Of a DNA stretch of 64,000 nucleotides, positions 49,784 to 54,860 are shown piece after piece. This DNA is from Roseimicrobium sp. ORNL1. GTDB lineage: Bacteria > Verrucomicrobiota > Verrucomicrobiia > Verrucomicrobiales > Verrucomicrobiaceae. The notes below the pieces were generated by a model. The model had not been told where the DNA came from, did not search any database, and saw only the letters and a program-made list of their open reading frames with translations. Both the position numbers and the translations under genes were made by a program. The stretch spans positions 558,001 to 622,000 of the forward strand of contig NZ_CP049143.1 of assembly GCF_011044495.1 (NCBI RefSeq), written 5' to 3'. The stretch's first letter is position 1. Each line of letters starts with the position of its first letter.

Positions 49784-50581
49784 ATGCCCGCCCCTGCTCA
49801 GTGTCTGATTTTTGCTTTTACGCTCGCTATCTCGCCAGTTTTTTCCCAAGAAACGAAGCCTGCTCCCGCCGCGCCTGCGGCAACACCTGCTCCTGCACCT
49901 GAAACTGCCCCATCAAAGGACGCGCCAAAAAATGAGGCGGACAAAGAAAAGGCTCCAGTTCCACAGAAGACCGGTGACGCTGCTACGCTCGGTCTTCCCA
50001 ATCAGACCAAGACCGGCACCTTGCCAGCTAACAACACCACGATCTCTGAACTCGCTGCCCAGGCCTTTGGTCGCAAGGACTGGGACACGGCGCGGAAATA
50101 CTATGAGCAGATGCTGCGCGAGGATCCGCTCAATGCGCTCACCCACGCCAACCTCGGTGCGGTGGAGCAGCAGTCCGGCCGCTTGAAAGAAGCGCAGGCA
50201 CTCTTCAGCAGGGCAGTCGCCATCAATCCAGATCTGCAGCAGACCTGGGTGGCACTCGGTCTGGTGAGCTATGAGAAGGGCGACCTGTACTACGCCCTTC
50301 ATGCCATCGGACGCGCGATCCACGAGGATCCCACCGATGCCCGTGCGCACAACTACCTTGCGGCAGTATCGAAAAAACTTGGCTGGCTGGATGCAGCCGA
50401 AGCTGAGCTTCTCCGCGCCATCGAGCTCGATCCCAAATACGCCAACGCCCACTTCAATCTCTGCATCATGTACCTGGAGCGCAAGCCCCCGGCCTTGGAA
50501 TTGGCGAAGCGTCACTATGAGAAAGCCGTGGCCCTCGGCGCGGCGCGTGATGAGCTGGTGGAGGAGAAGCTGAAGGAATAG
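49784..50581 (+). CDS. Secreted TPR protein with Pro/Ala-rich linker
   Basis: This is a 265-residue protein with a signal peptide (QCLIFAFTLAISPVFS). A linker rich in proline, alanine and lysine occupies residues about 25-70. Residues 88-240 hold at least four tetratricopeptide units (AAQAFGRKDWDTARKYYEQM, HANLGAVEQQSGRLKEAQAL, YEKGDLYYALHAIGRAIHED, LGWLDAAEAELLRAIELDPK). The linker suggests crossing or attaching to the cell envelope, with the TPR part binding proteins. The gene is divergent from lexA across an 82-base gap holding two palindromes, so it may be under DNA-damage control. Partner unknown. Confidence 0.8.
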   Translation: MPAPAQCLIFAFTLAISPVFSQETKPAPAAPAATPAPAPETAPSKDAPKNEADKEKAPVPQKTGDAATLGLPNQTKTGTLPANNTTISELAAQAFGRKDWDTARKYYEQMLREDPLNALTHANLGAVEQQSGRLKEAQALFSRAVAINPDLQQTWVALGLVSYEKGDLYYALHAIGRAIHEDPTDARAHNYLAAVSKKLGWLDAAEAELLRAIELDPKYANAHFNLCIMYLERKPPALELAKRHYEKAVALGAARDELVEEKLKE

Positions 50582-50634
50582 CTCAGCTTCCTCATTCATC
50601 GGTAGGCAAATAATGTCTGCCCAAGCAGCTATCG

Positions 50635-51624
50635 TTAGTTCACTTTAGGCCTAGGGTGAACTACCAGAAGCTTCTTCGTGTCCATCAGGTCGTAGTAAGC
50701 CCAAATATGCTGTTCTTGTGCTTGTGCGATCCATCGGGATTCGTCGTCATCGCCTGTGATGTTCTCGTTGATTTGCCCACGCAATTTGAGATCCTCTACA
50801 GAATGGAGAAATTCGTAGCCTCCAGCCTTGATCGCTCGTGCCCGCATTCTTTTGATTGTCTTCGCGATCTTCTCGCTATAGTACTCTTGACCGAAGAGGG
50901 TAGGAATTTTTTCCATTCCATTCGCTGCGAAATTGTAAGTTGCGGGATCGAAAATATTACGGATCCGCGTGGTCCTTTTTGCGAGGCCAAGCCCGGCATA
51001 GTATTGAGTAAACGCGAGATTGCCGGGAGTAGAGGCTCCAGAGATTAGGCACGACACGTCGATCTGATCATTCCTGTCCCAGAATCGCATTTCCTCGTGC
51101 AGCCATGATGCAACTACGGGAGCCATGGTTCCACCAAAACTGTGTCCTACTACGGTTACTAGTGATCGGCGATAGATGGTCTTCAAAAACTCCAAAAGCG
51201 ATCGTCTTTTACTGCGGAGAGTTCTGATGTGGTCTAGTGCGATTTGGGTTCCGTCGGCAATCCGCGGATCGTCTTGCGAATACGGCCATCTTTTCTGTGG
51301 ATAAATATTGAAAGCAAGAATCAGCCAGTCATAAATGGATGATGGATTGACTGCCGAAAGGGCAACAACATAGTCTGCCCGGTCGCGCCTCCGAGCGACA
51401 TACACAGCTTGGTCCGCATATTTGGAGAATGGTCGTGCTTGGAAGACAGAAGGCCCCCAAACACGTTCCCATTCGCCAATCTCTTCTTTGAAGAAGAGTA
51501 GCCCTTCGTCTAAATTTTTAGACAGGCTCGCCTCCAATGAATTTTTGTCACCCTTTTCATTGATCTGAGCATTGGCAAGAATGCCCAAGGTGAATTTTGT
51601 CTGAATGTTGGTGTACATTCTCAA
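50635..51624 (-). CDS. Class 3 lipase-like alpha/beta hydrolase
   Basis: This 329-residue protein has the nucleophile elbow GHSFGG (VTVVGHSFGGTMAPVVASWL) at about residues 160-165, preceded by a long helix, as in family 3 lipases. The acid residue is probably the D in NIFDPAT and the histidine the H in EQHIWAYYD near the C-terminus. No signal peptide is visible. Codon usage and composition are visibly AT-richer than the flanking genes, suggesting recent acquisition. It lies downstream of the small unrecognised gene on the same strand, 90 bases apart. Substrate unknown; the lipase-plus-small-gene arrangement also resembles effector pairs, which is speculation. Confidence 0.7.
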   Translation of the reverse strand: MRMYTNIQTKFTLGILANAQINEKGDKNSLEASLSKNLDEGLLFFKEEIGEWERVWGPSVFQARPFSKYADQAVYVARRRDRADYVVALSAVNPSSIYDWLILAFNIYPQKRWPYSQDDPRIADGTQIALDHIRTLRSKRRSLLEFLKTIYRRSLVTVVGHSFGGTMAPVVASWLHEEMRFWDRNDQIDVSCLISGASTPGNLAFTQYYAGLGLAKRTTRIRNIFDPATYNFAANGMEKIPTLFGQEYYSEKIAKTIKRMRARAIKAGGYEFLHSVEDLKLRGQINENITGDDDESRWIAQAQEQHIWAYYDLMDTKKLLVVHPRPKVN

Positions 51625-51714
51625 GAGCGATCAGCGTTGTTGAACTTGGATATTCCTGAATTAGGCAGCAGCGAAACTACCAGGGAGGCTCAGCTCCGCG
51701 CACTGCCTGTGTGG

Positions 51715-52110
51715 TCAGGGGAACATTTTTTTCTTAAAAATGTACCCGTCGGCACTGAAGACACCTTGGGTCACAACAAAGTGCACTGTGAGTGTGCACT
51801 TTGTGTTTGAGAGAACTTTTTCGTCGTATTGCCAATCCGTCACTGAAACTGTCGTAATGAGCTTATGTCCTTGGGGGGAAAAATAGGTACATTTTCCCTC
51901 AGATGCCTTGGGATGAACGGAAAGAATTGCGCTGAACTTTGACGCAACGTCCTTGTTGTCTTCTCCCTTGGCGACAAGGGCTAGCTCGATTAAGAATTGC
52001 AGTTGCTGACCCTCATATTGGAATGTTGCGTAGGCATTGTTCACTAACAGTGCTCCGTTTGCCAAGTCGAGGTCATCGCCTTTTGTCTGATTTCCAATGT
52101 TTGTAGCCAT
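51715..52110 (-). CDS. Hypothetical protein in an AT-rich region
   Basis: This is a 131-residue protein starting at the ATG at 52110, with an AGAAGAAAG purine stretch in front. The longer frame upstream has poor coding character. The sequence is rich in beta-like stretches (NAYATFQYEGQQLQFLIELAL, CTLTVHFVVTQGVFSADGYIF) with two cysteines and no signal peptide. No family was recognised. It is the first gene of a pair with the lipase-like gene on the same strand, and both have the same AT-rich composition, unlike the surroundings. Confidence 0.55.
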   Translation of the reverse strand: MATNIGNQTKGDDLDLANGALLVNNAYATFQYEGQQLQFLIELALVAKGEDNKDVASKFSAILSVHPKASEGKCTYFSPQGHKLITTVSVTDWQYDEKVLSNTKCTLTVHFVVTQGVFSADGYIFKKKMFP

Positions 52111-52274
52111 AGCTTTCTTCTGGTTAGTATTGTTGAATTTAATTAATTGGATTTGTGATCCCTTGGGTGTGAAAGGGTGGAGGTTCTGTTGCCTTGAGTT
52201 GGCTAGATCGCTTTTGCGGTGTTTGAAACCGCAGCCACACACGGACAAGCATTCCAGATTTCGACTTGACTGCC

Positions 52275-52292
52275 ATACGCGGAACCGCGTAT
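52275..52292. promoter_or_regulatory. Operator-like palindrome before the DUF5069 gene
   Basis: ATACGCGGAACCGCGTAT has perfect 8-bp arms and a 2-base centre. It lies between a TTGACT (52266-52271) and a TATTGA (52290-52295) with 18 bases between them, so it fits a promoter with an operator in its spacer, 28 bases before the start codon. A second hairpin TGCGGT/ACCGCA lies at 52215-52233. Confidence 0.5.
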
Positions 52293-52319
52293 TGACTACA
52301 GATTCAGTTTCTCCGCGAG

Positions 52320-52787
52320 ATGGCTGTGCGTTTCCCAGAGTCTCTTGTCAGGCAAGCGCTTGATTTGCGTGCTGTTTTTCCGCGCAGTCCACGGGAAACG
52401 CTGGGGGGTTACGTGCTCGCGGCACGTATCGTGGACAAAGCCAGGGCGGCTTTGGTTGACCAGCTCGGCGAATACACTTTTGCGGGTCCGAATTCACTGG
52501 ATTGGCTCTTCTTCGAGTTCACGGGACTCGAACCCGAAGATTTGAAGGCTTTTGTTGCTACGGGCGCCACGGACTTAGAAGTTGCGGACTGGATTGCCGC
52601 ACATGCACAGCCCCGAGAACGACTGGAAATCATCAAGTGGAACAACCGTATCCGGGATCTTCGGTTGAGTGAGGCTCCCGACTTCGCGCAGGAGTACATG
52701 GAAGAGTACATTGCGCGACACGTGCCAAAGCACCGGCCTGTATATCACTACCTGGATATTTACGATTTGGAGGAGGGGCGTCTCTGA
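52320..52787 (+). CDS. DUF5069 domain protein
   Basis: This is a 155-residue cytoplasmic protein. It has the DUF5069 pattern FPRSPRETLGGYVLAARIVDKARA, the LDWLFFEFTG turn, and VATGATDLEVADWIAAHAQP, followed by a helical C-terminus ending in YHYLDIYDLEEGRL. The domain is common in Verrucomicrobia and Planctomycetes with unknown function. The LuxR regulator gene originally began 21 bases downstream (ATG at 52809), so these two were probably one operon before the IS5 insertion. An operator-like palindrome lies upstream. Confidence 0.85.
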   Translation: MAVRFPESLVRQALDLRAVFPRSPRETLGGYVLAARIVDKARAALVDQLGEYTFAGPNSLDWLFFEFTGLEPEDLKAFVATGATDLEVADWIAAHAQPRERLEIIKWNNRIRDLRLSEAPDFAQEYMEEYIARHVPKHRPVYHYLDIYDLEEGRL

Positions 52788-52808
52788 CAGTGTTCTACCC
52801 GAATGTAT

Positions 52809-52827
52809 ATGAGTGCCGGGGACCTAG
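52809..52827 (+). pseudogene. Severed first codons of the LuxR-type regulator gene
   Basis: ATG AGT GCC GGG GAC CTA G encodes MSAGDL plus one base of the next codon. Joining it to base 53685, after removing the IS and one CTAG copy, continues as ARFSKAVLALQECR in frame with the regulator downstream. The split falls inside codon 7. This is direct evidence of the insertion event. Confidence 0.85.
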
Positions 52828-53681
52828 GTCGTGTCTGAGAACCTCAAATGAGTCTTAAATAACGTGGCTCAGAGGGCATTTGGTGGCAGCATAGGAACGA
52901 CATGAAAGTTCGATTTCTCTGGTGGGAGCCGCTGAAAAAGCGGCTCACAAAAATGGTGGTGCCCAGGTAAATCAAGGCGGGCGGCCTCGCACCGACTTGG
53001 GCCTGTTATTGGACGCCCTGTTCTATCGCCTGCGCAACGCAGGGCCCTGGCGTGACCTTCCAGAGCGGTTCGGGCCGTACTCCACCATTCACGGCTGGCA
53101 CAGCCGCTGGGCCAAGGAGGGCCTTTGGTTCAAAATCCTGGAGGTCTTCACGCGCCGAGTCCGCGGTCCGGTGCGCTTGGTGGATGGCACTCACATCCTG
53201 GTGCACCAATGTGCGGCCAATCCCGCTGGCGGTGCTGCCGCACAAGCCATGGGAAAGACGCGTGGTGGACGCAACACCAAGCTCATGGCTCTGACCGATG
53301 CCCGAGGTCGCTTGGTCAACACAGCTCTCATTGAAGGACAGGCTTACGAAGGACGTCATGTGGTCAATCTAATCAGAGTGGGATGTAATCTGCGCATCGT
53401 GGGGGACAAGGGTTTTGATGATGACAAACTTCGCGACACACTACGCGCCTTGGGTCATCAACCGTGCTTCCCCACCAAGAAGAACCGCAAACACCAGGTG
53501 CGCATCCCCAAGAAACTCTACCGCACTCGATACCGGGTGGAGAACTTCTTCTGCCGCTTGAAGCGATGGGGCTGCACCGCCACCCGTCGTGACAAGCTCG
53601 CTCAGAACTTCCTGTCCCTTATTCACTTCGCCGCAGTGATTGACTGGCTAAGGTCCTAAATACAGGTTTTCAGACACGACC
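52827..53681 (+). mobile_element. IS5-family insertion sequence, 855 bp
   Basis: The ends are 18-bp inverted repeats with one mismatch: GGTCGTGTCTGAGAACCT at 52827-52844 against the reverse complement of 53664-53681. They are bracketed by CTAG at 52824-52827 and 53681-53684, which fits a short target duplication; the exact border is ambiguous by one base because CTAG overlaps the end. It encodes a DDE transposase. Its insertion has cut the LuxR-type gene after codon 6. The near-identical ends suggest a fairly recent event. Confidence 0.92.
52902..53659 (+). CDS. IS5-family transposase, likely made by a -1 frameshift
   Basis: The DDE residues are in LVDGTHILVHQ, IVGDKGFDDD and TRYRVENFFCRLKRW, the YxxEN/DDE layout of IS5 enzymes. 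A short frame starts at the ATG at 52902 (FLWWEPLKKRLTK, like the usual IS5 N-terminus) and stops after 22 codons. The main frame (from GTG at 52922 to 53659) lies one base back and continues with GGRPRTDLGLLLDALFYRLR. The switch falls on a run of five A at about 52949-52953, where an AAA lysine codon can slip back one base. A frameshift-fused product of about 252 residues is therefore plausible; otherwise the GTG start gives 245 residues. Confidence 0.85.
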
Positions 53682-53737
53682 TAGCTCGTTTCTCCAAGGC
53701 AGTACTGGCGCTCCAGGAGTGCCGTTACTCAGCGGAA

Positions 53738-54739
53738 TTGGGTTCGGGATTGCTGCGCGCCATGCAGACTCTTTTTAGGGTCGACATCCAAATGGTCAAC
53801 ACGGTGCATGGTGACCAGATGGGTGTCTACACTACAACTTGCCCTGTTCCGGCAGAGCAAATGGAAGTGTTCAACGCGCACATTCATCAGCACCCGCTCA
53901 TTGAGCTTATTATGCGAAGGCCTGGCGAGCCCATGCGGGCGGCGCGGTGGTCAGATTACACGACTTTGCGGAGATTCAAGCAGACTGGGCTGTACCACGA
54001 TTACTTCCGCAAGCTCGGGATGCGCCGTCAACTTGCCGCAACTCTCGATGTGAACGGTGAGAATACCATTGCGCTGGCCTTTAGCCGTTCTGGGAGTGAT
54101 TTCCGTCCTGACGACGCGAGCTTGCTGGAATTGTTTCTGCCGCACGTACAGTGCATGATTCAGAACATGATAGACCGGGAGGTGGTCTTGGCGCTATGTG
54201 ATGTCGCTATGAATAACGAGGCGGTCATGCTGGTAGATGACAGTGGGGCCTTGGTCTATGCCACCGAGCACGCACGGCGCCTCGCACGTGAGCACTTTTC
54301 CGTTCATACTGCTGATGGTCTCCCAGTGGAAATCCGGTCCTGGCTGCAGGGCTCTCCTGCGCTTGGGTTAGTTCGGATTTGGGACCTGCCTGGGTGCCGC
54401 CTGTCTTGCACCTGCAGCGGTCTCGTGCGCATCGAAGGCGCTTTGGATGAGATTTGCCAAGGCATGCGCAGCTCGACGCACGTGCGTCGTTTGAGCTTTG
54501 TCGAGTCCCGTATGGAGCAGACGGTGAAGGTGCTGCAAGTACTCGGACTGACACTGCGCGAAGCGGAGGTGCTTCACTGGATGGCTGAGGGGAAGCGCAA
54601 TGGTGAGATAGCAATCATCCTGGGGATGAAGGAGCGTACGGTAGACAAGCATCGTGAACACCTGTTTGCGAAGCTCGGTGTGGAGACCCGCACCGCAGCC
54701 GTTGCCGCTGCGCGAAACGCGGCCGTTTTGCAAAATTAG
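53738..54739 (+). CDS. LuxR-family regulator, 5' end displaced by an IS element
   Basis: The open frame downstream of the IS encodes up to 333 residues from a TTG at 53738. The reconstructed original is 357 residues starting at 52809, with no frame change. The N-terminal 170 residues resemble a sensor or GAF-like domain (TVHGDQMGVYTTT, HQHPLIELIMRRPGEP, FRPDDASLLELFLPHVQCMI). The C-terminal LuxR helix-turn-helix is LTLREAEVLHWMAEGKRNGEIAIILGMKERTVDKHREHLFAKLGV. The IS separates it from its own promoter, so it may be silent, or be expressed from inside the IS. The in-frame remnant ARFSKAVLALQECRYSAELG lies just after the insertion point. Confidence 0.88.
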   Translation: MGSGLLRAMQTLFRVDIQMVNTVHGDQMGVYTTTCPVPAEQMEVFNAHIHQHPLIELIMRRPGEPMRAARWSDYTTLRRFKQTGLYHDYFRKLGMRRQLAATLDVNGENTIALAFSRSGSDFRPDDASLLELFLPHVQCMIQNMIDREVVLALCDVAMNNEAVMLVDDSGALVYATEHARRLAREHFSVHTADGLPVEIRSWLQGSPALGLVRIWDLPGCRLSCTCSGLVRIEGALDEICQGMRSSTHVRRLSFVESRMEQTVKVLQVLGLTLREAEVLHWMAEGKRNGEIAIILGMKERTVDKHREHLFAKLGVETRTAAVAAARNAAVLQN

Positions 54740-54860
54740 CGTACATTGTGGACTGGATGCTGAAGAAGCCGCTTGTCTTTGAACTCACTGCCTCCGGGCG
54801 AGCTTGCAACCCCATCCACAATTCTTGTAACATGACCGCAGCTACCCCGTAACTCCTGCC

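Follow-up and report, generated by a model that had tools for sequence, protein, structure and literature searches.

Apparent recent interruption of a LuxR-type regulator gene by an IS427-type insertion sequence in Roseimicrobium sp. ORNL1

We analysed a window of 64,000 nucleotides (G000:C1:558001-622000) from Roseimicrobium sp. ORNL1, the genome of which is a single contig of 7.96 Mb, and find a gene for a LuxR-type regulator that has very probably been broken by transposition. Taken as a whole, the locus is best explained by a recent jump of an IS427-type element into luxR, with duplication of the target, loss of the start of the gene, and silencing or reduction of its expression, an account in which we have high confidence. 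The element, 853 bp in length, entered a CTAG at codons 6–7 and duplicated this site; it probably came from one of the other copies on this chromosome. If the start is rebuilt correctly, the otherwise intact body of 351 codons was thereby cut off from its start codon and five codons and from the transcription and translation signals upstream. The features of the locus, in window coordinates, are as follows.

52320–52787, + strand: DUF5069 gene, 155 aa (PF16798, E 5.8e-35), directly 5' of the interrupted luxR
52803–52827, + strand: severed luxR 5' end, ATG 52803/52809, MSAGD plus CTAG (from the sequence, the joined frame and the start contexts)
52824–52827, no strand: left CTAG target copy (from the sequence)
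52828–53680, + strand: IS5-family (IS427-type) insertion sequence, 853 bp, oriented as luxR (from the genome copies and the NF033580 match)
52902–52970, + strand: leader frame MKVRFLWWEPLKKRLTKMVVPR, overlapping the transposase start and kept in related elements (from element comparison)
52922–53659, + strand: transposase frame, 245 aa from GTG, ending at TAA 53657–53659, in the same frame as luxR (PF13340, PF01609)
53681–53684, no strand: right CTAG target copy (from the sequence)
53681–54739, + strand: body of the LuxR/GerE-type regulator, ~351 codons, stop-free (PF00196, E 7e-16)

The inserted element matches the IS5 family, and its length, ends, duplication and transposase narrow it to the IS427 type. 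It encodes an IS5-type DDE transposase, which is matched by PF13340 and PF01609 in Pfam and reaches 188.7 bits with the IS5 model NF033580 of NCBIfam (cut-off 110 bits), and it has inverted ends with a target duplication. Between the CTAG at 52824–52827 and the CTAG at 53681–53684 lie 853 bp. Counting the terminal G and C as part of the element, with a duplication of TA alone, gives 855 bp, and the originally predicted size agrees with this reading; the two readings give the same empty site and are indistinguishable from the sequence. The ends had been described as 18-bp inverted repeats, and inverted repeats are present, but they are imperfect: GGTCGTGTCTGAGAACCT and GGTCGTGTCTGAAAACCT match at 17 of 18 positions with the flanking G/C counted. 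Both lengths lie within the range tabulated for the IS427 group (~830–865 bp, with a 2- or 4-bp duplication), whose members have imperfect ends of 15–18 bp and in some cases two overlapping frames (PMC3281130). In length, imperfect ends and 2- or 4-bp duplication, the element resembles the IS427-group elements ISPaes1, ISPak1 and ISPze1 of Paracoccus, which are 851–853 bp long (PMC3281130).

A leader frame of ~19–23 codons, reading MKTQRFAWWGPLKxRLKK or similar, is present in the related elements L083, L084, L086, L089, L096 and L097, where it overlaps the transposase start and stops just past an A-run (A_AAA_AAG in L084, A_AAA_AAA in L096). The transposase frame of L097 is closed 5' of the A-run. 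The leader frame, the A-run and the closed frame of L097 together suggest that these elements may shift frame by -1 very close to their 5' end, which would agree with the two-frame IS427 elements described previously (PMC3281130). In contrast to the IS427 group, the upstream frame here has only ~22 codons and the A-run of the window copy is short, with five A only (A5). A hairpin at 52926–52946 precedes the A-run (z −3.5 for the region).

The genome holds seven copies of the element, the window copy included. The copy at 4.19 Mb is 100% identical to that in the window over the full element and has other flanks, and two further copies are 98% identical; all three have CTAG on both sides, in unrelated flanks. 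Of the remaining copies, one is 96% identical and has mutated ends, another is truncated and a third has no left end. In a decaying copy, L005, the left end is swapped for unrelated sequence and the transposase carries two TGA stops. Because an identical copy sits elsewhere with different flanks, we regard the insertion event itself as beyond doubt, and the exact identity with this distant copy, together with the still-open luxR frame, points to a recent jump. The seven copies, the identical one among them, and the NF033580 score bear out the original prediction of an IS5-family insertion in a LuxR-type regulator. CTAG borders all four well-preserved copies of this genome and, in related genomes, the majority of copies, so CTAG is the target. 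The one same-genus relative, G061, carries a copy of 89% identity that contains a frameshift. From the left inverted repeat to the leader ATG (52846–52900 in the window), the G061 copy L062 diverges far more than over the rest of the element. We also ran an empty-site test of three other copies against G061; their flanks are absent from that genome, so the length of the duplication stays at either 2 or 4 bp.

Removal of the element with one CTAG joins ATG 52809 (or the in-frame ATG 52803) to 53685–54739 in an open frame of 357 aa with the start MSAGDLARFSKAVLALQECR, confirming the CTAG flanks and the uninterrupted frame that had been proposed. The insertion interrupts luxR after codon 5, and the CTAG site spans codons 6–7. 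Measured against this rebuilt gene, the present luxR body is detached from its start codon and five codons. With the start and the upstream signals lost, luxR is most likely silenced or strongly reduced, and its body would still be undecayed because the event is recent, as the identity with the sister copy and the still-open frame suggest.

The original prediction was that control had been lost or rewired. The loss of the start codon is seen directly; rewiring we consider possible yet unlikely. It would have transcripts from the DUF5069 gene or the transposase promoter cross the element and the body translated as an N-terminally altered regulator. The transposase and luxR do lie in one frame, in which a single TAA separates them, the loss is limited to five codons, and transcription might run on since no terminator-like site lies between the two (the only one in the region is inside luxR). 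However, a simple consensus scan of the region gave no sigma-70-like promoter, and the luxR frame has no ATG, GTG or TTG over the 78 bases that lie between the transposase stop (53657–53659) and TTG 53738. Translation of luxR would need read-through or re-initiation past the transposase stop, a non-standard start, or one of the candidate later starts, TTG 53738, TTG 53750 or ATG 53762, from which a protein with a shortened N-terminus could be made. A precedent for activation exists in E. coli, where an IS5 at a CTAG site, in the same orientation as the downstream gene, activates fucAO via a fusion promoter (PMC11894529). The case here is alike in family, target and orientation, but the fucAO element is intergenic, upstream of the gene it activates, whereas the present one lies within the coding region at codons 6–7 and removes the start. 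It is very improbable that the LuxR body now forms a new unit with the transposase, being translated with or right after it, such that regulator output would track transposase expression.

For the rebuilt start, the restored frame alone is weak to modest evidence, since an open ATG frame in a given phase occurs by chance within 36 nt of a junction at 16% of window positions. The homologues provide further support. In L076 (METIDSRQLRLFSQ), L075 (MPYIRQAQLNGLSQ) and L104 (MSTSIARVNILLEL) the distance from the start to the shared domain is about equal to that in the rebuilt protein, and their N-termini have the length and hydrophobic pattern of the rebuilt MSAGDLARFSKAV, with the Leu that is encoded across CTAG among the matching positions. 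The alignment of L077 begins at residue 1 of the rebuilt protein. This comparison rests on distant full-length homologues with 27–36% identity. Relatives with a mismatching N-terminus had been named as the finding that would tell against the joined gene, and these four instead fit it. Thus the rebuilt 357-codon gene appears well supported by the agreement of the N-termini. The further claim that it can be rebuilt exactly holds in that the homologues match the start; it is not proven, because the proposed search for the uninterrupted gene, which we carried out, found neither an orthologue nor an empty site in 68 family genomes, in samples of 388 genomes from the phylum and 384 from the class, or in GTDB contigs, plasmids or viral contigs. 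These searches returned only full-length homologues at 27–36% or matches to the C-terminal part.

The regulator is of the LuxR/GerE type, with a C-terminal GerE helix-turn-helix. The full-length relatives are scattered among genomes of the same phylum, and homologues in named GTDB records come in part from Verrucomicrobiaceae. The same genome has paralogues at 1.88 and 0.69 Mb that share the GerE DNA-binding end and a related N-terminal part; in contrast to them, the interrupted regulator is ~100 residues longer and has an extra middle part. We also considered a quorum-sensing LuxR with an autoinducer-binding domain and rejected it: the Pfam scan of the regulator gave GerE only, and none of the NCBIfam autoinducer-regulator models reached its cut-off. 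A structure of the body predicted without an alignment had a mean pLDDT of 36 and was set aside.

The DUF5069 frame stops at 52787, leaving the 21 bases to ATG 52809 that had been noted. Its protein matches the solved structure 3omd, a relative of unassigned function, and our literature search on DUF5069 found no paper mentioning the domain. The window and G061 correspond up to position 50577 and from 54820 onwards, in two blocks that lie inverted relative to each other. The 4.2 kb between them (50578–54820), which hold a class-3 lipase-like gene, an unknown gene, DUF5069 and luxR, thus sit at a rearrangement junction between G000 and G061 and have no G061 counterpart at this place except the element itself. 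Since G061, the closest genome, lacks luxR there and has nothing closely matching the DUF5069 gene, the pair is strain-specific in the present sampling. It is highly unlikely that the body never had the MSAGDL start, its true start lying elsewhere and the left flank stemming from some other rearrangement: the strain-specific segment at the junction and the 16% chance of the restored frame would allow this, but the CTAG on both sides, as in other intact copies, and the fit of the rebuilt start to the homologues speak against it.

A DUF5069–LuxR control circuit had also been proposed from the adjacency of the two genes. No clear DUF5069 neighbour was seen beside any LuxR homologue checked, apart from one marginal match near L106 (52 residues, E 0.07), and when DUF5069 loci in ten genomes of the family were inspected, the sole nearby LuxR-type helix-turn-helix to turn up belonged to a response regulator, at L021. 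With no checked homologue adjoining DUF5069, and the pair absent from G061, the circuit is unsupported and amounts to a guess from gene order.

The insertion in luxR is a new but ordinary instance of the well-known disruption of genes by insertion sequences. It carries a caution for annotation, as the downstream LuxR frame is a body without a start and not necessarily a working gene. It is also an example, from a little-studied phylum, of a gene cleanly and recently interrupted by an insertion sequence that appears to be active.
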